From: Caldifarciminota bacterium
Lineage (GTDB): Bacteria > Hydrothermota > UBA3072
NCBI GenBank assembly: GCA_016930175.1
Contig: JAFGHJ010000012.1
Span: 1 to 34,791, forward strand
Reading direction: 5' to 3'
Length of the DNA stretch: 34,791 nucleotides
How positions within the stretch are numbered: the first letter of the stretch is position 1; each line of letters opens with the position of its first letter. Positions 13,659 through 33,900 of the stretch are shown piece after piece. A program made the translations under genes and the position numbers. The notes below the pieces were generated by a model that searched no databases, was not told the DNA's origin, and worked only from the letters and a program-made list of their open reading frames with translations.

Positions 13659-13698
13659 TTTCTTTTTTGTTTTATTTTCCTCCCTTTATTAATCATAT

Positions 13699-21417: not shown

Positions 21418-21446
21418 ATTATAAAAATTTTTTAACTAAAAGTCAA
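21418..21446 (-). promoter_or_regulatory. Sigma-70-type promoter of the polX-murA-nadB operon (leaderless)
   Basis: On the minus strand TTGACT (21441-21446), 17-bp spacer, TATAAT (21418-21423). The -10 ends 7 bases before the ATG at 21410 with no room for a Shine-Dalgarno. Confidence 0.8.
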
Positions 21447-21530
21447 GCGGGAAAATAGCCACAAAGACACGAAGGCACAAAGATTTTAGGACGCAGATTT
21501 AAAAGGATTATTTTTTTGTTTAAGTATATT
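21447..21530. repeat. Dispersed intergenic motifs
   Basis: Contains the CACAAAGACACGAAGGCACAAAG motif type at about 21459-21483, followed by ACGCAGATTT...GGATTA and a T-run (21491-21519). The same two-part order recurs near 33163-33285. Confidence 0.5.
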
Positions 21531-21532
21531 AC

Positions 21533-21559
21533 AAAAAAAAGGCGGAGTTGCCTCCGCCT
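21533..21559 (-). terminator. Rho-independent terminator of microprotein gene copy A
   Basis: GGCGGAG (21541-21547) pairs with CTCCGCC (21552-21558) around a 4-base loop, with one more A-T pair outside. Read on the minus strand the stem is followed by eight T residues, so it terminates leftward transcription from the microprotein gene. Confidence 0.85.
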
Positions 21560-21583
21560 CGATTTTTGTTTTTTGGGGGTATT

Positions 21584-21658
21584 TTAATCTAAGCTTATGT
21601 TTTTTGCTATCTGGTACTCTTCTCTGTAGTTTTCGAATCTTTTATTCGTTAGTTTCAT
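21584..21658 (-). CDS. 24-residue microprotein, copy A
   Basis: A short gene of 25 codons. The product begins MKLTNKRFE, continues YR and EYQIA, and ends in a variable tail (ISLD). It has a strong Shine-Dalgarno CGGAGG (21665-21670) 6 bases before the ATG, an upstream ECF-type promoter and a downstream terminator, so it is a complete transcription unit. A second copy lies at 33027-33095 on the same strand: 16 of the first 18 residues are identical while 6 codons differ only synonymously. This is evidence of selection on the protein. The peptide is charged, without a hydrophobic segment or signal peptide, so it is probably cytosolic. I know no family for it. Confidence 0.75.
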   Translation of the reverse strand: MKLTNKRFENYREEYQIAKNISLD

Positions 21659-21683
21659 TTCTAACCTCCGTTCATTTATTAAG

Positions 21684-21712
21684 TTAGACGCAGGAAAGAG
21701 GATTTTGTTTCA
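21684..21712 (-). promoter_or_regulatory. ECF-sigma-like promoter of microprotein copy A
   Basis: On the minus strand TGAAAC (21707-21712), 16-bp spacer, CGTC (21687-21690) continuing TAACTT. Copy B has the same boxes at the same spacing although the spacer itself differs. TGAAAC-N16-CGT(A/C) is the pattern of ECF promoters such as Bacillus sigma-W/sigma-M; use of such a factor here is inference. Confidence 0.55.
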
Positions 21713-21747
21713 AGGTATTCATATTTTAGCATATATTTTAAAAGATC

Positions 21748-22236
21748 CTACTCGAGATGCCATACAAGAGAAAAGTCTACGAGCTGACTACCGAAAGAGG
21801 TGAGAGTTGTGCTATAACCGTAATCCGAAGATGAGTGCCAGATACCAGATAGGGCGCCGACATTTACAGAAAAATTGTCGTTAATAAAATGCTCAATTCC
21901 AAGCCCGAAAAGAAGAGCGTAACTGTGAGAACCTTCACCGCCAAGTATTAATCCGCCCAGTTTTAGTAAAAGATTCGATTTCTCCTTTCTTATAGGTTTG
22001 AAGTTGGCTAACATTGAGGCAGCAAAGAAGTCGGAAGAATAGTAATCCTCCGATATTTTATAAAAACCGAAAGACGGTTCTAAGCTCACATACTCAGATG
22101 CGCCGATTTGGACGTTAGTAAACGTAATTATAGGGGACCCCCAGAATCGGACACCCATACCGAATTTTCCTGCAGTGTTATAAGCGCCGAGACTCAAGGA
22201 AAAAACTACTATACCGAGCATAGAAAACTTTTTCAT
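21748..22236 (-). CDS. Small outer-membrane beta-barrel protein, paralogue 1
   Basis: A 162-residue protein with a signal peptide (about residues 1-18, ending LSLGA). The rest is alternating polar/hydrophobic strands rich in G, S, Y and F, as in small 8-stranded barrels ('SLEPSFGFY', 'LLKLGGL', 'LLFGLGIEHFINDNFSVNVGALSG'). It ends in 'FSLVWHLE', a strand-like C-terminus. The Shine-Dalgarno AAGGAGG just upstream fixes the start. It is a tandem paralogue of the next gene. The N-terminal 40 codons are nearly identical in DNA while the rest has diverged. The specific function is unknown; OmpW/OmpA-like barrels are comparable in size. Confidence 0.75.
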   Translation of the reverse strand: MKKFSMLGIVVFSLSLGAYNTAGKFGMGVRFWGSPIITFTNVQIGASEYVSLEPSFGFYKISEDYYSSDFFAASMLANFKPIRKEKSNLLLKLGGLILGGEGSHSYALLFGLGIEHFINDNFSVNVGALSGIWHSSSDYGYSTTLTSFGSQLVDFSLVWHLE

Positions 22237-22346
22237 ATTACCTCCTTTAGTTAAACCGCTAGAAATTTTACACTTATCTTATCATCCATTTTTTTGTTTT
22301 CTCCGTTGGTGGCATTTTAGTTTTTTGCAAGTTATAGAGAAGATTA

Positions 22347-22913
22347 CTAAAGATGCCATATAAGAGAGAAATCCACAATTTGGCTGCCAATGCCTGTTAG
22401 AGAAAAATTTTCGGAGTACACATCTTCTTCGGATTTGCTGCGCCAGTAACCGGATAGAGCGCTTACATTAACTGAAAAATTGTCGTTTATAAAATGTTCT
22501 ATGCCCAATCCGAACAAAATAACATAGTTGTTGGTTGTAGACGAATAAGCATAGGAATAGTCGTCATACAAATAAGAGTAAGAGTGAGAATTCCTGGCGT
22601 ACAAACCGCCGAATTTTATTAAAAGATTAGACCGCTCTGTTTTGATGGGTTTAAAGTTTGTGAGAAGTACTGCGAACAATATATTCTCTTCGGAATCGCG
22701 GAACCCTCCGTCGAATTCATCTTCACTCTTTGTTGTATAATAACCTATAGAAGGTTCAATTTCAATTAAGTTGCTTATACCGTATTTTACAGTAGAAAAC
22801 GTAATTATAGGGGACCCCCAGAATCGGACACCCATGCCGAATTTTCCCGCTGTGTCATAAGCCCCGAGACTCAAGGAAAAAACTGCTATACCGAGCATAG
22901 AAAACTTTTTCAT
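22347..22913 (-). CDS. Small outer-membrane beta-barrel protein, paralogue 2
   Basis: A 188-residue paralogue of the gene at 21748-22236. I start it at the ATG at 22913, preceded by AGGGAGG and aligning with the paralogue's MKKFSML signal peptide; an in-frame ATG at 22982 would add 23 residues ahead of the signal peptide. It shares 'GKFGMGVRFWGSPIITF' and 'LFGLGIEHFINDNFSVNV' with its twin. It differs by a Tyr/Ser-rich insertion in the centre (about residues 110-130), probably an extracellular loop. The chain ends 'FSLIWHL'. The two probably form one transcription unit, with about 110 bases between them. Confidence 0.75.
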   Translation of the reverse strand: MKKFSMLGIAVFSLSLGAYDTAGKFGMGVRFWGSPIITFSTVKYGISNLIEIEPSIGYYTTKSEDEFDGGFRDSEENILFAVLLTNFKPIKTERSNLLIKFGGLYARNSHSYSYLYDDYSYAYSSTTNNYVILFGLGIEHFINDNFSVNVSALSGYWRSKSEEDVYSENFSLTGIGSQIVDFSLIWHL

Positions 22914-23078
22914 ATTACCTCCCTTTTTAAGATTATAAAATTTTTCACTTACCATATCATCTATTCTACCGTCAATAAACAAAGTACTTTGTTATATAAA
23001 GTAATATAATAATATTTTTTATTTTGTCAAGGGGTTTTTTATTTTTTTTATGCCAAGAAGACACTGAGTCGCAAAATC

Positions 23079-23118
23079 GTTAGAGGGTTAGAGCGTTAGA
23101 GTGTTAGGGTGTTAAAAT
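23079..23118 (+). repeat. 8-bp-phased GTTA tract (5 units)
   Basis: Units GTTAGAGG, GTTAGAGC, GTTAGAGT, GTTAGGGT, GTTAAAAT run without a break. The first four bases are invariant and the last four drift. Confidence 0.8.
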
Positions 23119-23141
23119 TTCAAATACTTGGATGAGAGGAG

Positions 23142-23181
23142 TGGTTAACGCATTAACGCTTCTACGCTTTTACGCAATAAC
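23142..23181 (-). repeat. 8-bp-phased GTTA tract, inverted (5 units)
   Basis: On the plus strand the units are TGGTTAAC, GCATTAAC, GCTTCTAC, GCTTTTAC, GCAATAAC, in exact 8-bp register. It faces the tract at 23079-23118 across 23 bases. Confidence 0.7.
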
Positions 23182-23292
23182 TGCAATTAAATTCTCACAC
23201 AAAGACACAGTGCGCACAGAGGATATAAAGATTTTTTATTAATTAACAAATATTTAAATTAACCGATTAACGGATTCGAAGAATCCAATGTA

Positions 23293-23952
23293 TTAAAATA
23301 GATTTTTTAAAGTGCTTACGTTTAAAGAATCGTAATTTTCGACAATTAAATCGGCTTTTCCTAAATCCTGTTTGCCGCTGTTTGGATTTTTAAAACCCAC
23401 GCATTTCATTCCGGCGGTTTTTGCAGCCAAAACACCATTTTTTGAGTCTTCTATTACGATACAGTCAGATGGTTTAGAGTTAAGACGTTTTGCGGCTTTA
23501 AGAAAGATGTCCGGTGAAGGTTTACCTTTTTTAATTTCTTCTCCGCCTACAATTGCCGAGAAATAATTGCTGATTCCGAGTTTGTTTATTACCAGTTCTA
23601 TTACCTCGGTAGGCGATGAAGAAGCAATTCCTATTTTGATATTCTCTTGGGCTATTTTGAAGAGTAAATCTGTCACTCCTTTTATTTTTATTGGTTCAAT
23701 CTCTTCGTTTTTGATATAGTCGATATTTCCGCTGACCTGCATATTTACAAGTTCCGGAACGCTTTGAGGAAGGTTGTATCTTTTCTTTATTGTACTCCAC
23801 ATATCTTTATGGGTGGTTCCTATAAAACTGTGGTATTCTTCTTCGCTTAAATTTATTCCTAAATTAGCAAAGATCTTTTCGTTGACGACCAGATGAAACG
23901 GTTCGCTATCTATAAGAACTCCGTCCATATCAAAAATTACCGCTTCTAACAT
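23293..23952 (-). CDS. HAD-superfamily phosphatase/phosphomutase
   Basis: A 219-residue HAD subfamily I hydrolase with a helical cap, like beta-phosphoglucomutase and phosphoglycolate/sugar phosphatases. Motif I is 'FDMDGVLIDS' with nucleophile D8 and acid/base D10. Motif II is 'IASSSP' near 110, motif III K in 'KKGKPSPDIF' near 147, motif IV 'VIEDSKNG' near 168. The substrate cannot be set from sequence. The ATG at 23952 has a GAGGT ribosome binding site. It lies downstream of the GNAT gene on the same strand, 41 bases away, so the two are probably co-transcribed. Confidence 0.88.
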   Translation of the reverse strand: MLEAVIFDMDGVLIDSEPFHLVVNEKIFANLGINLSEEEYHSFIGTTHKDMWSTIKKRYNLPQSVPELVNMQVSGNIDYIKNEEIEPIKIKGVTDLLFKIAQENIKIGIASSSPTEVIELVINKLGISNYFSAIVGGEEIKKGKPSPDIFLKAAKRLNSKPSDCIVIEDSKNGVLAAKTAGMKCVGFKNPNSGKQDLGKADLIVENYDSLNVSTLKNLF

Positions 23953-23993
23953 TGTTTACCTCGGTGTATAACTTATTGGTTTTTCCGAAAATT

Positions 23994-24794
23994 TCAAGTA
24001 TTGACAGAACTCCTTTTTATTTCTTGATTTAACGTTTCTTGTAATTCATCTTGTGGTGCTGAATATCCCCAGTTTTTATACTTTCCGTTAAAGAATAAAG
24101 CTCGTTGGGTCTGATATTTTTCAAGGATTTTTTTATTACCGCAATTATACTCGTTTAGAATTACTTTATCTCCATATTCGGTGCAGACTTCTCTAACTCT
24201 TTGTATTTCGATAATAGACGTTAAACAAATCGGAGTCCAGAGAGCGTCGACCACGACTTTACCCTTGACTGGCTTAAATTTATAGTTCAACTTATGCATA
24301 ACGGGTGGGTCAACATTACTCCATGCCTTTATGGCAATGACAGTATCGTTTTGTCTCTCTATTTCCTTGTATCCGAGTTTCTTGAAAAAAGCGGAAGGCA
24401 TAAAAAAAGAATCATTGTCGTAACACAGAACTGCAACACCGTTCTTCTTACTTTCTTTTGCTTCTTCCTCTACCGCTTTTATAAGTGCTCTGCCTATACC
24501 GCTGCCCCTCGCTCTATTGTAGATTCGTCTATACTGAACTGCCAGACAGGGAATTGTCATTAAATCCTTTCCTGACACGCCCCAACTTCCAAGTTCGATA
24601 GGCAAACAATGTGCGGATCCGACCGGCTTACCTTTATCAACAGCTACTTTAATTTTAAGACCCTTCGCTATAGTATCTTTTATCCATTTTTCTCTAATAG
24701 AAGCCGCGTATTTCATTTCTTCATTGAGGTCGTCAATGTGGGTGCAGACTGAGACAAAATGCATGTATTTTTCTGTTAAATTGATCACTTCCAT
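23994..24794 (-). CDS. GNAT-family N-acetyltransferase
   Basis: A 266-residue protein whose residues 30-150 form a GNAT domain. The acetyl-CoA pyrophosphate loop is 'ARGSGIGRALIKAVEEEA', a variant of RGxGxG/A with a preceding 'PCLAVQYRRI' strand. It is followed by 'VLCYDNDSFFMPSAFFKKLGYKEIE', the usual end of the fold. The C-terminal ~100 residues are an extra region of unknown role, containing 'ALWTPICLTSI' and several cysteines. The acetyl acceptor is unknown. A Shine-Dalgarno AAGGAG precedes the ATG, and a candidate promoter lies at 24856-24885. Confidence 0.85.
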   Translation of the reverse strand: MEVINLTEKYMHFVSVCTHIDDLNEEMKYAASIREKWIKDTIAKGLKIKVAVDKGKPVGSAHCLPIELGSWGVSGKDLMTIPCLAVQYRRIYNRARGSGIGRALIKAVEEEAKESKKNGVAVLCYDNDSFFMPSAFFKKLGYKEIERQNDTVIAIKAWSNVDPPVMHKLNYKFKPVKGKVVVDALWTPICLTSIIEIQRVREVCTEYGDKVILNEYNCGNKKILEKYQTQRALFFNGKYKNWGYSAPQDELQETLNQEIKRSSVNT

Positions 24795-24855
24795 TTATCT
24801 CTCCTTTTCCTATTGCTATATTCTTCGTTCTCTAATAATTTAAACTTGATTAGTT

Positions 24856-24885
24856 AGAATATTAATCGAACAAGCCAAAAGTCAA
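24856..24885 (-). promoter_or_regulatory. Putative promoter of the GNAT-HAD pair
   Basis: On the minus strand TTGACT (24880-24885), 18-bp spacer, TATTCT (24856-24861). An overlapping TAATAT would give a 15-bp spacer. The leader to the ATG at 24794 is about 55 bases, unlike the leaderless genes. Confidence 0.45.
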
Positions 24886-25065
24886 GGATATCAAACCAAC
24901 GTTCTTTGCTTATACCTGAAAACCAGATTTCTTTCTTTGCTTACTATAATAGTGTCTACATGTTAATTGCTGGGGGTAGTAGAGTTTTGAACAAACCTGT
25001 CTTTTTACTTTGTGTTCTCTGTGAATTCTTTTTTCTCCGTGTCCTCTGTGGTTCATTCTCTTTCC
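24886..25065. other. Intergenic region upstream of the two-component locus
   Basis: No gene is seen. At about 25009-25060 lies an inverted copy of the dispersed CACAGAG family (CTTTGTG, CTCTGTG, CTCCGTG, CTCTGTG words). The operators and promoter of the plus-strand operon follow. Confidence 0.5.
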
Positions 25066-25101
25066 TTCGACAAAATTGTCGAATATTACAAGATTGTCGA
25101 A
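25066..25101 (+). promoter_or_regulatory. Tandem 18-bp operators, candidate enhancer sites for the NtrC-type regulator
   Basis: Site 1 is a perfect palindrome: TTCGACAA-AA-TTGTCGAA (25066-25083). Site 2 follows at exactly one 18-bp period: TATTACAA-GA-TTGTCGAA (25084-25101), right arm perfect and left arm degenerate. They lie about 140-165 bp upstream of the predicted transcription start, a normal distance for upstream activating sequences of sigma-54 activators. Binding by the regulator at 28593-29930 is inference. Confidence 0.65.
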
Positions 25102-25212
25102 AAGATACAGTTTTAAGAATCAAAAGCATAATGTAAGGTATTTGTTATATGTTATTGTTAATCAGGTATATATATTAATTATGATTTTAATTTTGGTATT
25201 AGAAAGAAAAAG

Positions 25213-25228
25213 TGGAACGGTAATTGTA
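25213..25228 (+). promoter_or_regulatory. Putative sigma-54 (-24/-12) promoter
   Basis: TGGAACG-N4-TTGTA against the consensus TGGCACG-N4-TTGCA, with GG and GT exactly 10 bp apart. There are two mismatches, one in the usually conserved -12 GC. Transcription would start near 25239. A sigma-54-dependent regulator is encoded by the last gene of the operon it would drive. Confidence 0.5.
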
Positions 25229-25304
25229 TTAAGTAGAATAGGAGTTAAAAATGAAAAAGGTTGAAATCGTAAAAGAAAAGGTTAAAATAAAAAAGGAGGC
25301 AAAA

Positions 25305-26102
25305 ATGAAAAAGCCGTTAACCTTACTTATGTTGATTGTTCCGTTATTCATCTTAGCGCAGACTGATGCTGGTGTTGCCGATGAAGAAGTCGTAATCGAG
25401 GGTGAAGTTGTCGAAGTGGAGGAAGTTTTACCTCCCAATGGTAAAGTGAATGTTATTCAGGCGAAAATCAGAACTCAAAATCAGGAAACGATTCAGGCCC
25501 ATCTTGGTCCGAAGTGGTTTTTGGATGATGAAATCGAGATAGGTGACAAGTTAAAGCTTCAGGGTGCTTTCAAAGAGAATAAGCTTCAGGTAAGAGTCAT
25601 GGTCAGGGATACGAATAGATATAATATCAGAAATGAGGCAGGAGAGCCGCTCTGGATACGAAGCAGACTTCAGGAAAAGAAGTGTATCTATAACCCTGTT
25701 AAAGAGAAAACCATGAAGGGCAAAATCGAGGAACTTTATTTGACCGGAGAAACTCATAATTTAGAAGCGCAGGTACAGACCGGAGAAAATGAAAGGGTGA
25801 GGGTTCAACTGGGTCCCGAATGGTTCCTTCAAAACAGAATTAGAGTCGGAGATGAGATAGAATTCAGGGGTGCGAACGCAGATGTCGACGGCGGTCAGAT
25901 GCTGCTGGTCCGCGAGATGAGGAATCTCAGAAATAAGGAAGAGTTGAAGCTCAGAAATAAGCAGGGGTTTCCCGAATGGGCAGGAGAAGGGGGAGAACAG
26001 CTACAGAAAAGAATACAACAGCAAAAAAGAGATGGGAGCCAGGCTGGCGAGATGCAGCAGAAAAGGTTAAACGAAGAGCCAACTCAGGGTAAAGGTCGAT
26101 AA
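25305..26102 (+). CDS. Secreted protein with two OB-like 'LGPxWFL' domains
   Basis: A 265-residue exported protein. Signal peptide at about 1-18, ending FILA. Two homologous domains follow (about 28-118 and 137-226). Each has a strand-rich start, 'LGPKWFL' (67-73) or 'LGPEWFL' (169-175), then an 'I..GD' turn, and closes with an 'RNEAGEPLW' or 'RNKQGFPEW' signature. The tail (227-265) is Gln/Lys/Arg-rich and probably unstructured. The pattern recalls small periplasmic OB-fold proteins of unknown function. I start at 25305, with AAGGAGG 6 bases upstream, because the signal peptide begins there; an in-frame ATG at 25251 adds a charged 18-residue lead. First gene of the operon with a beta-barrel, kinase and regulator. 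Confidence 0.75.
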   Translation: MKKPLTLLMLIVPLFILAQTDAGVADEEVVIEGEVVEVEEVLPPNGKVNVIQAKIRTQNQETIQAHLGPKWFLDDEIEIGDKLKLQGAFKENKLQVRVMVRDTNRYNIRNEAGEPLWIRSRLQEKKCIYNPVKEKTMKGKIEELYLTGETHNLEAQVQTGENERVRVQLGPEWFLQNRIRVGDEIEFRGANADVDGGQMLLVREMRNLRNKEELKLRNKQGFPEWAGEGGEQLQKRIQQQKRDGSQAGEMQQKRLNEEPTQGKGR

Positions 26103-26112
26103 TGGTGAATCT

Positions 26113-27120
26113 ATGAAAGTTAGAAATCTCGGGATGGCAGGAGGAGCAATTATTTTGCTCCTCCCCTTTCTTTTATTAGGTTATACCGGTATTTCGGTGT
26201 CTAATTCGTACACGGATAATTTGTATTTTATAGGCGAAATTGAAAAAGCCGGTAATAAAACGAACGTCTCACCGTTTTTAAGCTATTCAGGTTTTTTGGA
26301 TTTTGATTATTCGGGAGATGCAACAATTATCGATTTCGATGAAGAAGATATATTTATTGGCAATCGAGTGGGTATACAGAAAAGATTTAATCTCCCGGGT
26401 CTTGGCAGCAGAAATTATTTGTATCTGAATGGCTATAATTTCATCCCTCTTAAATACGAGAATTATGGACTGAACGAAATATACGGAGGAGATTCCCTGT
26501 CTTTTTATATTGGTAATTTTTTATTGGGAGTGGGAATTGGAGCTGGTTATGTTGACTTTAGTTCCGATTCAGTCGAAGATTATTTTAAACCGGAAATAAC
26601 AGCCGACTTATCGATACCGATGCCTTATTTTTATTTTGTTCCCGGTGCAGGTGCCGGTTTGATGATTTATGAAGATGATCGGCTGCCTTATTACAATTTT
26701 TCTCTTTCTTTAGACTTTCCCTTAACAGGGGACTTTACAATGTCTTTTGGGGGTAATTACTCCCGATTATCGGAACCCGGAAACGATTATCCTATTTCAG
26801 ATTCACTCCTTCTGGATCCTTTTTTTGAGAATGAAGGGATTACAAGAAGTGTCGATCTCGATCTTTCAGTAAACAAGACTTTTGTTGAGCAGAAGGCTTA
26901 TTTGAGCTTATATTTGACTCTCTTTGAAAAAGACTTCTTTGAGGTTAGCAATATACGGCGGAATGATTCGGGATTTTTTGCTGGCTTGCGATATACTAAG
27001 ATAATAAACAATAACACTTCATTCTTCGTCAGCTTTAGTTCGGAAATTAATAACTCTACAATAGAAGATTTAAATTATACAAAAAACAGCATTGGCGGAG
27101 GAATCCGATTGATTTTCTGA
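26113..27120 (+). CDS. Outer-membrane beta-barrel protein
   Basis: A 335-residue protein with an N-terminal hydrophobic signal (about 8-23, 'MAGGAIILLLPFLLLGY') followed by many amphipathic strands. These are rich in Tyr, Phe, Gly and Asn with Asp/Ser turns ('SFYIGNFLLGVGIGAGYVDF', 'FTMSFGGNYSRL'). It ends in 'GGGIRLIF', with the terminal Phe used by the BAM machinery. About 14-16 strands are plausible. No porin family was recognised. It lies 10 bases after the secreted protein gene and 22 before the kinase, so it is co-expressed with them. A sensing or export partner of the system is inference. Confidence 0.75.
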   Translation: MKVRNLGMAGGAIILLLPFLLLGYTGISVSNSYTDNLYFIGEIEKAGNKTNVSPFLSYSGFLDFDYSGDATIIDFDEEDIFIGNRVGIQKRFNLPGLGSRNYLYLNGYNFIPLKYENYGLNEIYGGDSLSFYIGNFLLGVGIGAGYVDFSSDSVEDYFKPEITADLSIPMPYFYFVPGAGAGLMIYEDDRLPYYNFSLSLDFPLTGDFTMSFGGNYSRLSEPGNDYPISDSLLLDPFFENEGITRSVDLDLSVNKTFVEQKAYLSLYLTLFEKDFFEVSNIRRNDSGFFAGLRYTKIINNNTSFFVSFSSEINNSTIEDLNYTKNSIGGGIRLIF

Positions 27121-27142
27121 AAAATTTTGTTAGATTAATACA

Positions 27143-28591
27143 ATGAAATCTAAATCAGTAATACTGTTTTCTATATTTGTAGTTATAGGGGTACTGGCTT
27201 TCTTTACAGTCCAAATAACCAATAGAAGTATCGAGCGTATATATAAAAACAGCCACACGACGACTTTTCAGTTGTTGTCTGAGATTGCCGACAATTATGT
27301 GAAGAGAGATCTGGAGCTTAATAGAATGGAAATTGGCAAACTAAAGAACAAAGGTAAAGATATCCTGCGAGATTATTTTGAAAATAATTATATTGCCTTA
27401 AGTGAAAATCTCTATGGTATCTGGATTTTTAGTGATTCTCTTTTGAAAAGTTCGAGCAGATTTCCCGGGCAGGAAGAAATTATACTGGATTTTTACCGCA
27501 GGGAATTGAAAGATAAAGATTATGGAACCCTGGTGAATTTAGAAGGAGAACCATTTTATCTGGTTAATATAATTTCTGAGAGTTACAGTATCCTTCTTTT
27601 GTCTAAGAGTGTCTATGGTGAGACAGAAAATATTACACAGGTTCTGGATTCTCTTGTTTCTACATCGAATCTTGTTTACTTTGCGATAGTTGATGAGGAT
27701 GAATCTCCTATAATTTACAGCTCTATTTATGAGGGTTTTTTGCCGGTGGAAGGAGAGGGAAGCCATATTATTGAAACACCTGACGGTAAAATATTCCAGC
27801 TTGAAGAAGCAAATAACGAAAAGACTGTTATCGCCGGTTTTTCAATGCGTCCGCTTGAACGTGTTATTGCGTTTAACGGGGTATTTCTATTAATAGTTAT
27901 AGCTGGTTTTTCGGTTTTTCTTGGATTCCTTATATTTAATTTGACAAGGACCGAAAGATATAGAATAGACAAACAAAGAGAAATTCGTCATCTTGAAGAA
28001 ATTGGCGCTCTTTCTTCGGGCTTTTCTCACGAAGTGCGGAATTCTCTTAACACACTTTCTTTGCTTGCCAGAAGTATGGAAGGTGAACAGGGAAATATTC
28101 TTAAACAAGAAGTTAAAAGAATGAATCTTGTTATGGATTCAATAAAGTTATTGATACTTTCCGAAGTTGATAAAGAAGATATCGATATCGATAATACAAT
28201 CGTTGAGGCTATCTCTTTGACTGATAATAAGAATAATAAAGTAGAGATAAAATTGGAGTCTGCGGTCAAGTTGAAGATACAGGCGAATAGGGCTTTGTTA
28301 GTATCCGCGTTTTCAAATATCTTTAAAAACGCCGTTGAAGCAGATGCCGATAAAGTTAGAATTCTAATGCGAAAAGTGGGAAATATTGTAAGAATTGTTA
28401 TTATCGATAACGGAAAAGGAATAGAAAAAGACAGTATCAAAAGAGTTTTTGAGCCTTTTTATTCTAGTAAGAGACAAAGCGGAATTGGACTTTATTTGGC
28501 ACGTAAAATTATCGAATATCACGGCGGCAGTATAAAACTTGAGAGCGGTAAAGAAACCAGGGTAGATATACTTTTGCCTATAAAGGATTAA
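27143..28591 (+). CDS. Membrane sensor histidine kinase
   Basis: A 482-residue kinase. Transmembrane helices at about 7-25 and 245-267 bracket a ~215-residue periplasmic sensor region that may be double-PAS/Cache-like. After a short linker, the H-box 'GFSHEVRNSLNTL' places the phosphoaccepting H296. The ATPase domain has the N-box 'NIFKNAVEA' (N396), G1 'DNGKGI' (422-427), 'FEPFYSSK' and 'GIGLYLARKI'. It belongs to the NtrB/AtoS-like type that pairs with sigma-54 activators. The next gene, 1 base downstream, is such a regulator. The sensed signal probably concerns the envelope, given the two exported proteins encoded ahead of it. Confidence 0.93.
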   Translation: MKSKSVILFSIFVVIGVLAFFTVQITNRSIERIYKNSHTTTFQLLSEIADNYVKRDLELNRMEIGKLKNKGKDILRDYFENNYIALSENLYGIWIFSDSLLKSSSRFPGQEEIILDFYRRELKDKDYGTLVNLEGEPFYLVNIISESYSILLLSKSVYGETENITQVLDSLVSTSNLVYFAIVDEDESPIIYSSIYEGFLPVEGEGSHIIETPDGKIFQLEEANNEKTVIAGFSMRPLERVIAFNGVFLLIVIAGFSVFLGFLIFNLTRTERYRIDKQREIRHLEEIGALSSGFSHEVRNSLNTLSLLARSMEGEQGNILKQEVKRMNLVMDSIKLLILSEVDKEDIDIDNTIVEAISLTDNKNNKVEIKLESAVKLKIQANRALLVSAFSNIFKNAVEADADKVRILMRKVGNIVRIVIIDNGKGIEKDSIKRVFEPFYSSKRQSGIGLYLARKIIEYHGGSIKLESGKETRVDILLPIKD

Positions 28592-28592
28592 A

Positions 28593-29930
28593 TTGAATAT
28601 CTTAATTGTCGAGGATGAGGTAAATCAGCGAAAATTACTTAAAAAAATTCTTTCAAAAGAAGGATATACTGTCGAAGAGGCAGGAAACGGGGTAGAGGGG
28701 ATCGATTTATTTTTTAGGGGAAATTTTGACCTTGTGCTTCTGGACCGGAAATTACCCGATAAGGAAGGTGTCGAAGTTTTACGAGATATAAAAAAAATAA
28801 ATCCAATTATCCCGGTTATAATAATTACCGCTTTTGCCAATGTCGCTAACGCCGTGGAAGCCATGAAAGAAGGCGCTTTTCATTATTTGACAAAGCCCAT
28901 AGACCCGGAAGAGCTTATATTAATAATTAAAAATTCTCTCGATAATCTTAATTTGAAAAGAGAAAATATAGAATTGAAGGAATCTTTAAGGGAAAAGTTT
29001 AGGTACGATAAGATTATATATAACTCCGGGATTATGGAGGATTTGATGTCCCTTATATTCAGGGCATCCAAGAGTGACGCGAATGTTCTTATAACGGGTG
29101 AGAGCGGTACCGGTAAGGAGCTTATTGCCGGTGCTGTCCATAATCTTTCTTTGCGAAACGAGAAACTTTTTGTTACCGCGCACATCGCGTCTCTAGCCGA
29201 GACGCTTATAGAGGCGGAATTATTCGGGCATGAAAAAGGAGCTTTTACAGGAGCGGATAAAAGGCGAATAGGCAAGTTCGAGTTTGCCTCAGGCGGCACG
29301 ATATTTCTGGATGAGATAGGAGAATTGCCTAATTCGGTGCAGGTCAAGCTGCTGCGGGTAATTGAGGAAAAGAAAATAACGAGGATTGGTTCGAATGAAG
29401 AAATTCCTATCGATATAAGATTGATCTGCGCTACAAACAGGGATATAGAGAAAGAAGTCGAAAAAGGAACGTTTAGAGAAGATTTGTATTACAGGCTGAA
29501 CGTAATCAGAATCCATGTTCCGCCTCTTAGAAAGAGAAAAGAAGATATTCCTTTGCTCGTGTCTAATTTTATAAAGACTCAAGGTAAAAAAGAGAAAAAG
29601 GATGTTAAAGGGATTACGGATGAAGCCCTGAAAAAAATTCTTAAATATGATTTTCCGGGCAATGTCCGGGAACTAGAGAACATAATTAAGCGGGCTGTTG
29701 TTTTTTCCCGCGGTGATTATCTTACCGGTGAAGATATTTCTGTACCGGTGGATAAGAGATTAAAATACAGCGGCAAATTAAATGATGGAGTTAGAAACCT
29801 CGAAAGAGGTATGATAGAAGAAGCGCTTAAAAAACATGACTGGAACCAGAGTAAAGCCGCTAAGGAATTGGGTATCTCCGAGCGGACGATAAGATATAAG
29901 ATAGGGAAATACAAGATTAAAAAAAGCTAA
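28593..29930 (+). CDS. NtrC-family sigma-54-dependent response regulator
   Basis: A 445-residue activator with three domains. The receiver (1-115) has acidic E7-D8, phosphoacceptor D51 in 'LLDRKLPD', T79 and K101. The AAA+ domain (about 140-375) has Walker A 'GESGTGKE' (169-176), the sigma-54-contacting 'GAFTGA' (216-221) and Walker B 'TIFLDEIGEL'. A Fis-type helix-turn-helix lies at the end ('WNQSKAAKELGISERTIRYK'). The family's usual 'NC' after Walker A reads 'AH' here. The start is TTG, 1 base after the kinase stop, with AAAGGA upstream. Operators at 25066-25101 are candidate targets, so the operon may be autoregulated. Confidence 0.95.
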   Translation: MNILIVEDEVNQRKLLKKILSKEGYTVEEAGNGVEGIDLFFRGNFDLVLLDRKLPDKEGVEVLRDIKKINPIIPVIIITAFANVANAVEAMKEGAFHYLTKPIDPEELILIIKNSLDNLNLKRENIELKESLREKFRYDKIIYNSGIMEDLMSLIFRASKSDANVLITGESGTGKELIAGAVHNLSLRNEKLFVTAHIASLAETLIEAELFGHEKGAFTGADKRRIGKFEFASGGTIFLDEIGELPNSVQVKLLRVIEEKKITRIGSNEEIPIDIRLICATNRDIEKEVEKGTFREDLYYRLNVIRIHVPPLRKRKEDIPLLVSNFIKTQGKKEKKDVKGITDEALKKILKYDFPGNVRELENIIKRAVVFSRGDYLTGEDISVPVDKRLKYSGKLNDGVRNLERGMIEEALKKHDWNQSKAAKELGISERTIRYKIGKYKIKKS

Positions 29931-30021
29931 ATTCACCACAGAGAACACCCTGAGCGGTCGTTCCTCTCTACAGGGCAGGCAAATAGCAAAAATAGTTTTG
30001 AAGATTGAACCATAAAAATAT
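29931..30021. repeat. Dispersed repeat copy between convergent genes
   Basis: Holds 'CACAGAGAACACCCTGAGCGG', TTCCTC and ACAGGGCAGGCA words that recur inverted at 7140-7229 and in part at 30790-30800. No hairpin terminator is evident for either convergent gene. Confidence 0.5.
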
Positions 30022-30384
30022 CTATTTCTTATAACTTATATTAAGTTTGGCAGCTATGCCGTGAAGTTTTCGGTCGTAAGTAAAAATAGGAGTTTCGCTT
30101 AACATTGCCGAAGAAAGAAGATGGACATCGACATAACGCAACCCTTTACCCATCAGATACCGCAAATCGATAAATTCCATTACCTCTTCGTGAGTGGCAA
30201 CTTTCGCAAAAGGCAAAGCATTGAGTAAAGTAAGTATTTCCGAACGTTTATTCAGATTTCCACAGGCAAGTTCGCCGACGACAAAAGGATGACACACTAC
30301 CATACCGCGATTTAGTAAGTCCTCAAGCAGAGAATCTCCATCTCGAAGATGCGAAACCCAAACAGAAGTGTCGACAAGAATCAT
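30022..30384 (-). CDS. vapC: VapC-type PIN-domain toxin
   Basis: A 120-residue PIN ribonuclease. The four acidic active-site residues are in place: D5 in 'LVDTSVWV', E39 in 'VVGELACG', D86 in 'YVDVHLL' and D104 in 'TYDRKL'. VapC toxins cleave specific RNAs (often tRNA or rRNA); the target here is unknown. It follows its antitoxin gene by 3 bases, the usual arrangement. No sign of decay. Confidence 0.93.
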   Translation of the reverse strand: MILVDTSVWVSHLRDGDSLLEDLLNRGMVVCHPFVVGELACGNLNKRSEILTLLNALPFAKVATHEEVMEFIDLRYLMGKGLRYVDVHLLSSAMLSETPIFTYDRKLHGIAAKLNISYKK

Positions 30385-30387
30385 TTA

Positions 30388-30585
30388 TTAATTCTTTTCC
30401 GAACTTCTTCTGGGTATAGCGTTTAGTTTTTTCTCCGTTCCGCCCAATTTAGCAAGCCTCTTTGCACTCTCAAGAGAAATCAAAGCTTCAAGCCCCAGGT
30501 TTACCAGAGATGTTTTTTCTTTTACTCCGGTTAACCTGGATGCCTTTTCTACAAGCTCATTGTTTATATTTAATGTAGTCCTCAT
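30388..30585 (-). CDS. vapB: VapB-type antitoxin
   Basis: A 65-residue protein with an N-terminal ribbon-helix-helix-like DNA-binding segment ('MRTTLNINNELVEKASRLTGV...LVNLGLEALI') and a basic C-terminal tail that would wrap the toxin. This matches the VapB group commonly paired with PIN toxins. It is first in the pair. Upstream lies a TTGACA promoter surrounded by repeated GCAT words, likely autorepression sites. Confidence 0.88.
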   Translation of the reverse strand: MRTTLNINNELVEKASRLTGVKEKTSLVNLGLEALISLESAKRLAKLGGTEKKLNAIPRRSSEKN

Positions 30586-30600
30586 TTATCCCCCTTTTAT

Positions 30601-30646
30601 ATGCAATATTATATGTATAAATATGCATAAAAGATGCATTTGTCAA
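30601..30646 (-). promoter_or_regulatory. vapBC promoter with GCAT-type operator
   Basis: On the minus strand TTGACA (30641-30646), 17-bp spacer, TATTTA (30618-30623). The spacer contains ATGCAT-CTTTT-ATGCAT and a further TGCAT sits downstream at 30601-30605, forming inverted repeats suited to a dimeric VapB. Confidence 0.55.
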
Positions 30647-30829
30647 GTGCTAAATATTAAACCACGAAACACACGAAAAAAACGTAAAAGTTATCATTGC
30701 GAATTCTTCTTCTTGCCTGACTTATGTGAAGCAATCTCAAGGGTACTTGCACCGCAAAGCCGCCCCGCATGGAATAGAATTTGTCATTCCACAGGGCAGG
30801 CAAAGTACGCAGAGGTTTTTTGTTTTTCC

Positions 30830-30861
30830 CACTCAACTATTAAACAACTTAACCATTTAAC
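30830..30861 (-). repeat. 8-bp-phased TAAC tract (4 units)
   Basis: Units CACTCAAC, TATTAAAC, AACTTAAC, CATTTAAC in strict register; the reverse complement is the GTTA-type octamer seen at 23079-23118. Confidence 0.65.
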
Positions 30862-30878
30862 TAATCCGAAGGATTTAT

Positions 30879-30927
30879 AAGCCGTAAGCAGTAAGCCGAA
30901 AGCCGTTTCTGACTAATGACTGGTGAC
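30879..30927 (+). repeat. 7-bp-phased tract (7 units)
   Basis: Units AAGCCGT, AAGCAGT, AAGCCGA, AAGCCGT, TTCTGAC, TAATGAC, TGGTGAC follow each other without a gap, so two related heptamer words join in one register. TGACTGA-type heptamers recur at the right end of the window (34779-34791). Confidence 0.7.
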
Positions 30928-31018
30928 TAAGTCCTCTTTTCAAAAAAAGGACTGCCCATATTAGCATTTATAATGTCACAGTGTTTACCCCGTGGAATGT
31001 GGAACTATTCCATAAAGG

Positions 31019-31034
31019 GTCAAGCACCGTCCCC
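31019..31034. repeat. GTCAAGCACCGTCCCC repeat, copy 1
   Basis: Identical 16-mer at 34119-34134. On the minus strand it reads GGGGACGGTGCTTGAC, a sequence I associate with elements mobilised by REP-type Y1 transposases; that link is recollection, not shown here. Confidence 0.6.
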
Positions 31035-31072
31035 GAATATTTGCCAACCAAAAAGTTTACATAATACAATTA

Positions 31073-31115
31073 CCAAATTTCACATTTTCGTTACGGACAA
31101 AAATGTGAAATTTGG
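31073..31115. repeat. Perfect 16-bp inverted repeat
   Basis: CCAAATTTCACATTTT (31073-31088) pairs exactly with AAAATGTGAAATTTGG (31100-31115) across an 11-base loop. There is no T-tract after either arm, so it is not a standard terminator. It sits between the 16-mer repeat and the remnant coding stretch. Confidence 0.75.
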
Positions 31116-31123
31116 AGTTGAGG

Positions 31124-31203
31124 TTATTTATTGTGGGGGAATTTTTTCTCCAATTCTTTAATCTTATCCAGGACTTCCTGGCTGAAATTTTTGTTTCTTT
31201 TCC
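31124..31203 (-). pseudogene. Possible 3' remnant of an unidentified gene
   Basis: Minus-strand frame ending in TAA at 31124-31126 reads like a natural protein tail ('KNFSQEVLDKIKELEK', then 'KFPHNK'), with codon use similar to the neighbours. No start codon or upstream body exists; the frame runs back into an octamer repeat and then a stop. It may be the end of a decayed mobile-element gene, but too little remains to identify. Confidence 0.3.
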
Positions 31204-31235
31204 TTCCTAACTTCCCAACGCTCCAACCCTATAAC
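31204..31235 (-). repeat. 8-bp-phased TAAC tract (4 units)
   Basis: Units TTCCTAAC, TTCCCAAC, GCTCCAAC, CCTATAAC; reverse complement GTTATAGG, GTTGGAGC, GTTGGGAA, GTTAGGAA. Confidence 0.65.
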
Positions 31236-31260
31236 TTTAAGAATTAATTCTTATGAGCTG

Positions 31261-32070
31261 TCAGCGGTATGCATATTTTTCCTTGATTGCTTTTCTAATA
31301 AACATAAAAACATTTGACGAAAACAAACCGTAAAATAAAAGATTCTCAAAAAATCCTAAATATAGCCAGAACATCAAACCGGATACAACAAGAATGAAAA
31401 CAAGAGCAATGACTATTGGTGTAGCTTTTAAAGTGTTTTTAAATAATCTTTTAAAATATTCAACGACGGAAGTTTCCAATAATTTTTTGCATTTTACGCA
31501 GAAAATACGTGTAGGATAGTTTTTAGCTCCACAGTGTTTACAAATATGAGTTTTTTTACTTTCTTCTTCGTTGATTTGGTGCTCCAGGGATTTGATTTCT
31601 CTTTCGGTTACAGTAAGAACATCTTCATTTGTAAGCTCACGTGCTTTTTTAAAACTTTTTAAAGCGTTTCTGACATCCCCGAGGTCTTTATACAAATATC
31701 CCAATCTCATATAAAGTCCGACGTCGGCACCTTCTTTTTCGAGATATTTAAGTATATTTCTAATTTCTTCGTTGTCTTTACTGATTCTCCTTTCTTTAAG
31801 TTCACCTTCCTCTACACTCAAAGAATTTATAGCATAAGGAAAACCAAGCAGCGCTAAGAAAGCTATTATTCCTACACCAGGAATGTCACTAAAAATAGCA
31901 AGTACAAATACTATGATTACACAAAATAGAGCGATGAATAGTCTTGTGTCTTCGAACAATTGACCAAAGTAAAAATCTTCCCACAAAAAAAAGATATATA
32001 AGAGATATAGCGCTATGACCTCAACAAACCACAAGGCATAGATAATTATAACAAAAATAGTAAATTCCAT
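31261..32070 (-). CDS. Membrane protein with TPR-like and zinc-ribbon segments
   Basis: A 269-residue protein of unusual make-up. Two or three N-terminal membrane helices (about 4-29 and 43-80) are followed by a soluble middle with a TPR-like helical pair ('GLYMRLGYLYKDLGDVRNALKSFKKA', 118-143). Next is a zinc ribbon with C177-x2-C180 and C191-x2-C194. Two C-terminal membrane helices lie at about 217-238 and 241-258. The TPR and ribbon would lie together on one membrane face, most likely cytoplasmic. I know no named family. No partner gene is adjacent and no clear Shine-Dalgarno is seen; the start at 32070 is the first ATG before the hydrophobic helix. Confidence 0.7.
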   Translation of the reverse strand: MEFTIFVIIIYALWFVEVIALYLLYIFFLWEDFYFGQLFEDTRLFIALFCVIIVFVLAIFSDIPGVGIIAFLALLGFPYAINSLSVEEGELKERRISKDNEEIRNILKYLEKEGADVGLYMRLGYLYKDLGDVRNALKSFKKARELTNEDVLTVTEREIKSLEHQINEEESKKTHICKHCGAKNYPTRIFCVKCKKLLETSVVEYFKRLFKNTLKATPIVIALVFILVVSGLMFWLYLGFFENLLFYGLFSSNVFMFIRKAIKEKYAYR

Positions 32071-32166
32071 TTCTTATATTGTAAGAATTTTGATACTTTA
32101 AGTCAATATGGTGATTCTCACACAGAGACACGGAGAACACGGATTTTTTGTTGTTTTCTTAATGAA

Positions 32167-32571
32167 TCAACAATATTGTTTTAAAAAATCGGCTGGTTTT
32201 AATATTTTTATTTTTCGAAATTCGGAAAGTTCCAGTAAATGAGCATCTCCGGATATAATGAAATCAGCTTCCGATTCGATTGCGCATTCAAGTAGCGTAT
32301 TATCTTGAGGGTCTTTTTTTATTATATCTAATTTGATCTTCGGACTAACAAGTTCTGCAATCGAATCAAGAGAGGAAATTATGTAACGTATGTTTTCTTC
32401 TGCAATATTAAACTTTTCCCGTGCTAAAACTCCTTCAATTTCACTAATAATCTCTTTTGAAATGTATAATTCTATTTCGCCCTCTATTGCGAGTTCTAAA
32501 CATTTTCTGGGAGAGCCGCCGAATAAAATAGCAGAAATTAAAACGTTAGTGTCAAAAACAACTTTAAACAA
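32167..32571 (-). CDS. PIN-domain toxin of the COG1569 / PIN_3 type
   Basis: A 134-residue protein of the 'putative toxin-antitoxin system, PIN family' group. Acidic active-site candidates are D7 in 'VFDTNVLISAI', E44 in 'IISEIEGVL', D90 in 'DPQDNTLLECA' and D109 in 'SGDAHLL'. The 'KDPQDN' and 'ISGDAHLL' segments distinguish this group from VapC proper. It starts 1 base after its antitoxin gene. RNA target unknown. Confidence 0.9.
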   Translation of the reverse strand: MFKVVFDTNVLISAILFGGSPRKCLELAIEGEIELYISKEIISEIEGVLAREKFNIAEENIRYIISSLDSIAELVSPKIKLDIIKKDPQDNTLLECAIESEADFIISGDAHLLELSEFRKIKILKPADFLKQYC

Positions 32572-32572
32572 G

Positions 32573-32812
32573 TTACTGCTCTTTTCTGTAAGCTTCTATT
32601 TCTTTTTCCACATCCGCTTCAGAAAGCCCTTTGTCCCGGTTAAGGATGTCTCCGTAAGAAAAAATCTTTTTCCATCTTTCTTTTCTATCGATGTAAATTC
32701 TCGCCGCTTCACGTACAAGTTCAGACCTTGAACGGGATTCTTCTTTCGCTATGTCGTCAATTTTCTTTAATAAATCCTTCTTAAACGATATATTTACAGT
32801 TTTATTCTTCAA
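32573..32812 (-). CDS. Ribbon-helix-helix antitoxin (CopG-like)
   Basis: A 79-residue antitoxin. The N-terminal strand 'NKTVNISFKKDLLKKIDDIA' and helix 'SRSRSELVREAARIYI' form a ribbon-helix-helix; the acidic C-terminus ('LSEADVEKEIEAYRKEQ') probably binds the PIN toxin. I start at TTG 32812: GGGAGG (32818-32823) lies 5 bases upstream and the RHH strand begins immediately. The in-frame ATG further upstream (32872) would place the promoter inside the gene and add a Tyr-rich lead. Pair partner is the toxin at 32167-32571. Confidence 0.85.
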   Translation of the reverse strand: MKNKTVNISFKKDLLKKIDDIAKEESRSRSELVREAARIYIDRKERWKKIFSYGDILNRDKGLSEADVEKEIEAYRKEQ

Positions 32813-32823
32813 TTTAACCTCCC

Positions 32824-32872
32824 ATATACAATATATGTATCTATAATATATACAATTTTTGTATTTTGGCAA
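32824..32872 (-). promoter_or_regulatory. Promoter/operator of the RHH-PIN pair
   Basis: On the minus strand TTGCCA (32867-32872), 18-bp spacer, TATTAT (32843-32848). Copies of ATTGTATAT flank the -10 on both sides (near 32824-32832 and 32848-32856), suitable as RHH half-sites for autorepression. Confidence 0.5.
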
Positions 32873-32975
32873 GAATGAATTAGCCGCAAAGGCACCAAGT
32901 CACAAAAGTAGTCATGAGTCTTGTGTTGTGAGTCAAAAACAATAAGGGAAGACCGTGGTTGGTAAAGTGTAAACG
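32873..32975. repeat. Short intergenic stretch with dispersed motif
   Basis: Contains CGCAAAGGCACCAAGTCACAAAAG words (about 32882-32906), a degenerate copy of the CACAAAG family. No gene is seen. Confidence 0.4.
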
Positions 32976-33004
32976 AAAAAAGGCGGGGAATACCCGCCTT
33001 TTTT
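32976..33004 (-). terminator. Terminator of microprotein gene copy B (bidirectional)
   Basis: A perfect 12-bp stem (32976-32987 with 32993-33004, core GGCGGG) around a 5-base loop, with A/T runs at both feet so that either strand ends in six T residues. It lies 22 bases beyond the microprotein stop, like its counterpart at copy A. Confidence 0.85.
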
Positions 33005-33026
33005 ATCCTTCTTAAGTTTTTGCTTT

Positions 33027-33095
33027 CTACTTTAACTCGTTTGCTATCTGATATTCTACTCTATATTGCTCGAATCTTTTATTTGTTAATTTCAT
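33027..33095 (-). CDS. 22-residue microprotein, copy B
   Basis: A 23-codon gene whose product starts MKLTNKRFE, continues YR and EYQIA like copy A (21584-21658), and ends in a different tail (NELK). The Shine-Dalgarno GGAGG lies 7 bases upstream of the ATG, and the ECF-like promoter and terminator are arranged as in copy A. Compared codon by codon with copy A over 18 positions, 6 differ silently and only 2 change the residue (N10Q, E13V). No hydrophobic segment. The gene stands alone between two toxin-antitoxin pairs, so the two copies share no flanking gene. Confidence 0.75.
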   Translation of the reverse strand: MKLTNKRFEQYRVEYQIANELK

Positions 33096-33122
33096 TTTTA
33101 AAACCTCCGTTTATTTATAAAG

Positions 33123-33151
33123 TTAGACGCGAAGGGGAGAGATTTGTTTCA
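33123..33151 (-). promoter_or_regulatory. ECF-sigma-like promoter of microprotein copy B
   Basis: On the minus strand TGAAAC (33146-33151), 16-bp spacer, CGTC (33126-33129) continuing TAACTT. Boxes and spacing equal those of copy A while the spacer sequence has drifted. Confidence 0.55.
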
Positions 33152-33300: not shown

Positions 33301-33606
33301 TTACTTGTTACCAACAGTCGCTTTTTTCGGAAAACTAATTATATTAGCCGGCTTATGCTGCATGGCCTTCCACAAATCGAGCTTAATTTGCATATTAAGC
33401 CAGCTCTCAGGACTGGTGTTGGTTGCTTCACCAATTCTTACCGCCATTTGCGGACTTAATGACGTTTTTCCGTTAATAAGCTCATAGAGAGCTTTCCGAC
33501 TAACCCCTAAATCTTTTGCCGCTTCGGCGACCGATAATCCTGAAGGTTTTATTACATCCTCTAACAAAACTTCGCCCGGATGTGTCGGCTTTCTTTTGTT
33601 TACCAT
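33301..33606 (-). CDS. higA: HigA-type antitoxin
   Basis: A 101-residue HTH protein of the HigA/VapI group: 'THPGEVLLEDVIKPSGLSVAEAAKDLGVSRKALYELINGKTSLSPQMAVRIGEATNTSPESWLNMQ' is close to the family consensus (quoted features: HPGE start, HTH at about 24-46, SPESWLNMQ). It binds its own promoter and neutralises HigB. It has a Shine-Dalgarno (GAGAGGTGA) and follows higB by 15 bases, toxin first as usual for this system. Confidence 0.93.
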   Translation of the reverse strand: MVNKRKPTHPGEVLLEDVIKPSGLSVAEAAKDLGVSRKALYELINGKTSLSPQMAVRIGEATNTSPESWLNMQIKLDLWKAMQHKPANIISFPKKATVGNK

Positions 33607-33621
33607 TTTTTATCACCTCTC

Positions 33622-33900
33622 TTAATGATAATCCTTGTAGTCAACCATAATCGCATCTTCACCTGTAAATTTAAAAGTTATCCTCCAATTTCCGCTTACC
33701 CATACCGAGTAAACATCCCTGCTTTTCCCTGATAATTTATGTAGTTTATAACCCGGAAGATTCATATCTTTTGGACTAGTAGATGCATCCAAACGGTCCA
33801 ATATTCTCGCAAGCTTTTTCGCATGTTCCGGATTTATTCCTTTCTTATTCCCGTCGTTAAAAAACTGCTCGAGCCCTTTATGCTTGAATTCCTTTATCAT
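33622..33900 (-). CDS. higB: HigB-type RelE-fold toxin
   Basis: A 92-residue mRNA-interferase-like toxin. 'IKEFKHKGLEQFF' opens the chain, 'LDRLDASTSPKDMNLPGYKLHKL' leads to the core strand 'VYSVWVSGNWRITFKF', and it ends 'VDYKDYH', all typical of the HigB/YgiT-associated plasmid-maintenance killer family that cuts mRNA on the ribosome. First gene of higBA. The ATG lies 7 bases after the -10 box, so translation is predicted to be leaderless. Confidence 0.93.
   Translation of the reverse strand: MIKEFKHKGLEQFFNDGNKKGINPEHAKKLARILDRLDASTSPKDMNLPGYKLHKLSGKSRDVYSVWVSGNWRITFKFTGEDAIMVDYKDYH

Follow-up and report, generated by a model that had tools for sequence, protein, structure and literature searches.

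Two minus-strand microgenes on a 34,791-nucleotide stretch of DNA from an uncultured Caldifarciminota bacterium of the WOR-3/Stahlbacteria type (GenBank assembly GCA_016930175.1, contig JAFGHJ010000012.1, positions 1 to 34,791; hereafter the window) belong, as judged from sequence, to a real and previously unnamed microprotein family. This family is probably transcribed by one autoregulated extracytoplasmic function (ECF) sigma factor, with its peptide acting in an envelope-stress module. At 22–24 residues, such proteins fall below the length limits of the usual gene callers. An earlier sequence-only reading of the window had proposed the two genes as an undescribed microprotein family, and this is borne out by intact copies, an excess of synonymous change, unremarkable folding of the transcripts and searches of Pfam, NCBIfam, PHROGs and the PDB that gave no match above cut-off for the peptides. 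What that reading overlooked was the ECF-sigma regulon and the existence, near the sigma gene, of a long version of the protein. Because the ECF promoter, the coding pattern and the neighbourhood in sister genera agree independently, the argument for the family depends neither on length nor on chance. Both ECF regulons and small proteins induced by stress are familiar kinds of system; the protein family itself has no entry in the searched libraries.

The microgenes and their coding pattern

Both open reading frames (ORFs) are intact on the minus strand. Copy 1 (MKLTNKRFENYREEYQIAKNISLD, 24 residues; 21584–21658, stop included) matches the A7 family profile at E = 5.8e-12, and copy 2 (MKLTNKRFEQYRVEYQIANELK, 22 residues; 33027–33095, stop included) at E = 9.1e-10. 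A Shine-Dalgarno sequence GGAGG, read from the sequence and invariant among the four copies described below, lies upstream on the same strand at 21665–21669 and 33104–33108, respectively. Each gene also has an intrinsic terminator: that of copy 1 (21539–21560, minus strand) is a 9-pair stem with a T run, and that of copy 2 (32976–33004) was listed by the terminator search on the plus strand and is near-palindromic in sequence, so that it reads on both strands. A recount of the 18-codon core shared by the two genes gave the same six silent (codons 3, 4, 9, 11, 14 and 15) and two replacement differences (codons 10 and 13) as first described.

A search of the whole home genome (G000; 2.34 Mb, 48 contigs, 94% complete) yielded exactly four stand-alone microgenes, all intact. 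Two of the four had not been seen before: copy 3 (MKLINKRFEQYRAEYQIAKNLN, C23:53116-53181) and copy 4 (MKLTNKRFGHYRAEYEIASNLN, C28:3483-3548). With the 24-residue protein as query, the second window copy was found at E = 7e-6, which, together with the two additional intact copies, places the similarity beyond chance. No broken or decayed copy was found in the home genome, even with the profile of the wider family. At the DNA level, similarity among the four copies starts at the −35 element and stops at or before the terminator, and the neighbouring genes differ at each copy, in line with the earlier claim that no flanking gene is shared. In copies 2 and 4 the similarity extends another ~35 bases upstream, in a common intergenic repeat. 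Degenerate intergenic repeats ('TTTGTGCCTTCGTGTCTTTGTGGC') lie in the window at ~21440–21490 and 32880–32930 and also in L050, L051 and L052; they recur through these genomes and often abut ECF promoters.

Across the four copies, 3, 3 and 7 of 18 columns vary at codon positions 1, 2 and 3. Of the 16 substitutions that separate the home copies over 17 codons, 8 are silent, where 2.8–4.1 would be expected (p 0.003–0.03, the range depending on the assumed transition bias), and the pairwise ratio of nonsynonymous to synonymous change (dN/dS) is 0.05 to 0.4. In comparisons of long forms across the sister genera, synonymous sites have reached or nearly reached saturation, and the N-terminal motif is kept. 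The transcript bodies fold no better than shuffled sequences (z −0.98 to +1.10), the consensus fold has almost no covariation term (−0.06) and a search of Rfam gave no match; we thus found no RNA structure that explains the conserved bases better than the protein does. Given the silent excess and these three null results, the peptide is the likelier product, with a side role of the RNA possible.

The shared promoter and a candidate sigma factor

The block upstream of all four microgenes, which had been noticed as promoter-like and conserved but whose identity had gone unrecognised, is TGAAAC-N16-CGTCTAA (21684–21712 for copy 1 and 33123–33151 for copy 2, minus strand). By its sequence it is a textbook promoter for ECF sigma factors such as SigW, SigM and RpoE, and CGTC is a documented ECF −10 element (PMC3397946). 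The 2.34 Mb contain only four exact matches to this pattern, one in front of each microgene. None of the 6 columns of the −35 box and none of the 7 of the −10 box vary among the copies, compared with 13 of 16 in the spacer and 29 of 30 just upstream of the −35 box; invariant boxes between variable surroundings indicate that the boxes are under selection as a promoter.

A looser consensus, TGAAAC-N16/17-CGTCWAA, has eight sites in the home genome. They precede the four microgenes, an ECF sigma gene, an operon of a 38-residue ORF and a DUF6249 gene, a gene for a tetratricopeptide repeat (TPR) protein and a gene resembling MacA and other resistance-nodulation-division (RND) adaptors. The same consensus has three sites in G002, two in G003 and five in G004, and in G004 a LiaG-like gene also lies at such a site; G008 has one stray site and G001, G005, G006, G007 and G009 have none, with the reversed pattern, used as a control, giving counts near zero.

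The ECF sigma gene of the home genome (L009:1534-2094) encodes 186 residues that comprise only regions 2 and 4, with scores above gathering for PF04542 and PF08281 and above cut-off for TIGR02937 sigma70-ECF. Directly before it stands a one-mismatch match to the promoter, TGAAAC-N16-CGTCAAA, and the N17 form precedes the three orthologs. The sigma gene hence has the same promoter as its putative targets, the arrangement expected of autoregulation. In four of four genomes the gene directly downstream, in the anti-sigma position, encodes a protein of 125–135 residues (135 in the home genome) with hydrophobic helices and no Pfam or NCBIfam match. Orthologs of the sigma factor, 54–61% identical to P0001, were found only in G000, G002, G003 and G004, and so co-occur with the consensus sites. 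The dispersed copies would thereby form one ECF regulon, a part of the explanation that we consider probable as a whole. From its gene content (an RND-type adaptor, a LiaG-like protein, the DUF6249 membrane protein and a TPR protein), the most likely role of the regulon is in envelope stress, and the microproteins look like a main output of this response.

Long forms, DUF6249 and other relatives

The long form in the home genome, MLKYKFRYRFKHFEEKLYPSSDLGYFEIYEPKTLFFYN, is a 38-residue relative of the microproteins. Its operon lies ~2.3 kb from the sigma gene, and directly after it comes a gene for a membrane protein with DUF6249 (PF19762), a domain without known function. Three sister genera carry the same module (G002, G003 and G004; Candidatus Stahlbacteria, candidate division TA06 and candidate division WOR-3): an ortholog of the sigma gene behind a promoter of its own and, in divergent orientation, a gene for a protein of 39–43 residues followed by DUF6249. 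Their long forms begin MIKFNKRFSQFKEEYYPSNDLGYFERY..., MIKINKRFKKLREEYLPSKVLGYYEEY... and MIKLNKRFNRYKELYHPSSDLGFDESY..., and in all four genera the long form sits between the consensus promoter and DUF6249. This domain scores above gathering in all four by one search and in three by another. Within this GTDB family it is confined to these four genomes, and across the phylum it occurs in 37 of 147. Stand-alone 24-residue copies with the same promoter and terminator are present twice in G004 and once in G002 (MRLNKRFSQFK[RK]YYNPSIDIINIR and MRLNKRFAQFKMKYRPSSDLAIIR). In the congener G001, searches for the sigma ortholog, DUF6249, the microproteins and the promoter sites all came back empty; other genes lie upstream of its polX-like gene, so it offers no clean empty site for comparison.

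The family, 22–43 residues in size, has the core M-x(1-3)-[LITF]-N-K-R-F-x(3)-[KR]-x-x-Y, usually with [PI]-[SA] within the next two residues. Membership was taken as a profile match together with an intact ORF that has a ribosome site, and both window ORFs qualify. A profile search with this NKRF family gave 13 ORFs, the two of the window and 11 others, at E <= 2.4e-8, and the next match at 0.006; weak matches in other families (E 0.006 and above) were left out of the count, as were L014 and L016.

Relatives also occur outside the module. G005 lacks this sigma factor and has a 37-residue relative inside a different ECF operon (L099:94-2612). Besides the relative, this operon encodes an ECF sigma, a membrane protein where an anti-sigma would be expected, a TPR protein with a membrane anchor and, after the relative, a protein weakly resembling Metal_resist (PF13801, heavy-metal resistance; E 9e-4, below gathering score). 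This arrangement recalls CnrYXH-type systems. In G122, from another family of the phylum, the relative MKLNKRFEKFKRDYQISNNISII (L105:1782-1850, C209) has no ECF promoter and gave a sub-threshold YqiM match (E 0.045), the only one among the peptides. Its contig, of 4.9 kb, is densely filled with short genes, one of them with a PHROG match (phrog_10141, E 7e-6), and may be a phage-like element that carries a peptide of the stress regulon; tblastn of this copy against phage records and a search of viral contigs for the leader-DNA pattern gave no match. In DUF6249 loci of other families in the phylum the microprotein was not found, in a scan whose motif rule picked up the DUF6249 gene at some of these loci only. 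One such locus, in G036 (L116), has an ECF promoter before DUF6249 that drives a different, hydrophobic ORF of 31 residues (VIKLVKGLLIGIGFTVVYLFCITYTLYLIRF), and the slot between promoter and DUF6249 thus seems to hold unrelated small proteins. A literature search on DUF6249 function and on Stahlbacteria small proteins returned nothing.

Some neighbours of the microgenes deserve mention in their own right. Just upstream of copy 1, 21748–22236 and 22347–22982 are tandem paralogs for small secreted, possibly beta-barrel proteins with near-identical signal peptides. Three toxin-antitoxin-like pairs, judged by eye from their translations, lie at the right end of the window (ribbon-helix-helix/PIN at 32167–32872, HigA/HigB-like at 33301–33900 and antitoxin/PIN at 30022–30585), two of which flank copy 2, and MNT/HEPN-like and PIN-like genes lie near copy 3 on C23. 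Elsewhere in the window, an O-acetylhomoserine sulfhydrylase-like frame (12375–13685) has 436 open codons, of which the first ~128 include no ATG, GTG or TTG; either an uncommon start codon or a misassembly could account for this.

Proposed function and its alternatives

We propose that a membrane-anchored anti-sigma releases the sigma factor, whereupon polymerase would start at TGAAAC-N16/17-CGTCWAA and make a transcript of ~140–150 nt that ends at the terminator; its leader would measure ~20 nt and its ribosome site would be strong. The predicted peptides are basic and by inspection have no signal or transmembrane segment, and the product would be soluble and act in trans. The window genes would be additional stand-alone genes of reduced length that supply more of the N-terminal half under envelope stress; since stand-alone genes retain only this half, it would be the minimal unit and would have to act in trans. 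Possibly a helix, it would most likely bind a partner in the envelope-stress module through the segment NKRFxx[YF]xxxY. DUF6249 is the first candidate partner because of the operon linkage in four genera, and the sigma/anti-sigma pair the second because the family is linked to two different ECF systems. A membrane-binding amphipathic helix was considered and rejected for lack of support, the hydrophobic moments being no higher than in shuffled sequences.

Several points weigh against this proposal. Expression, translation and binding of the peptides are inferred, and the sigma factor is assigned to the promoter by the identity of the motif and by joint occurrence in a few genomes, all from one family. 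Other ECF sigmas may exist in the home genome, which gave 11 candidates at a loose first look, only one of them at E <= 1e-20, and its stand-alone copies use CGTCTAA with a 16-bp spacer, most other sites using CGTCAAA with 17 bp. The synonymous excess is based on 16 substitutions. AlphaFold predicts a helix at residues 2–16 with low confidence (pLDDT, its per-residue confidence score, about 60) and no fold beyond. Finally, the relatives in the G005 ECF operon and, without this promoter, on the phage-like G122 contig indicate that the pairing with DUF6249 is not strict.

An unlikely but serious alternative is feedback regulation, in which the peptide would bind the ECF sigma or its anti-sigma instead of acting on the envelope. 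In four genera its gene lies close to that of the sigma factor, in G005 it belongs to another operon of the ECF/anti-sigma-like type, and the peptide looks soluble and basic, but it matches no anti-sigma or other Pfam or NCBIfam model and was not seen in the readable ECF–DUF6249 loci of other families, in a partial scan. Short, monocistronic, sigma-dependent units in several copies with strong terminators also have the shape of sigmaE small RNAs (FoxI/FoxJ, PMC11005410), and the transcripts could be ECF-dependent regulatory RNAs, like MicA/RybB of Escherichia coli or FoxI/FoxJ of Fusobacterium, with an incidental or secondary ORF. The codon-position pattern and the excess of synonymous change, the absence of folding, covariation and Rfam support, and the 37–43-residue homologs, conserved as proteins in operons with different DNA, make this improbable.

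We give still less credence to small mobile elements, similar to miniature inverted-repeat transposable elements, that carry the promoter by descent. The copies are dispersed, the G122 relative lies on a phage-like contig and toxin-antitoxin-type genes are found near copies 2 and 3; yet the similarity runs only from promoter to terminator with no shared flanking element, the ORF is under purifying selection and decayed copies are lacking. Least credible is that the ORFs are leader peptides of attenuators that control a PolX-like gene at copy 1 and a ribbon-helix-helix/PIN pair at copy 2. Both window copies do have a terminator followed by a same-strand gene (PolX-like from 21410, ribbon-helix-helix from 32872), but the genes after copies 3 and 4 are convergent, which largely refutes it, and DNA similarity is confined to the unit itself, with different neighbours at every copy.

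The proposed microprotein regulon resembles those of SigW, SigM and RpoE in its autoregulated ECF sigma, a downstream membrane protein in the anti-sigma place, TGAAAC-N16/17-CGTC promoters and the presence of a MacA/RND-like adaptor and a LiaG-like protein among the targets. It differs in that half of the home consensus sites drive stand-alone copies of one microprotein; we know of no ECF regulon with half of its recognisable promoters given to dispersed, stand-alone copies of a 22–24-residue protein. With the sigmaE small RNAs (FoxI/FoxJ, MicA, RybB) it has in common that its units are short, monocistronic and sigma-dependent, end in terminators and number more than one per genome, whereas the conserved product here is a peptide and no RNA structure is supported. 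YirB of Bacillus subtilis is a small basic protein that is made in cell-wall stress and acts by binding a partner (PMC6057675). The mode of action proposed here is similar, although YirB is under CssRS/YuxN control and not that of an ECF sigma, and we claim no homology. DUF6249/ECF gene pairs elsewhere in the phylum share with our module the small gene directly before DUF6249 near a sigma gene only in part: the long forms have this place here, but the microprotein was not found in the readable loci, and G036 has its different ORF.

If the regulon is as we propose, an unnamed family gains a candidate area of function in envelope stress, and DUF6249 gains a small-protein partner. More tentatively, and at somewhat less than even confidence, an envelope-stress sigma factor may act largely via one diffusible microprotein of ~22 residues made from several dispersed stand-alone genes in parallel, a relative of which has been taken up by a phage-like element; if true, the microprotein would be a protein counterpart of the sigmaE small RNAs. 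We suggest that sigma-promoter motifs may be usable for finding microproteins in uncultured phyla.

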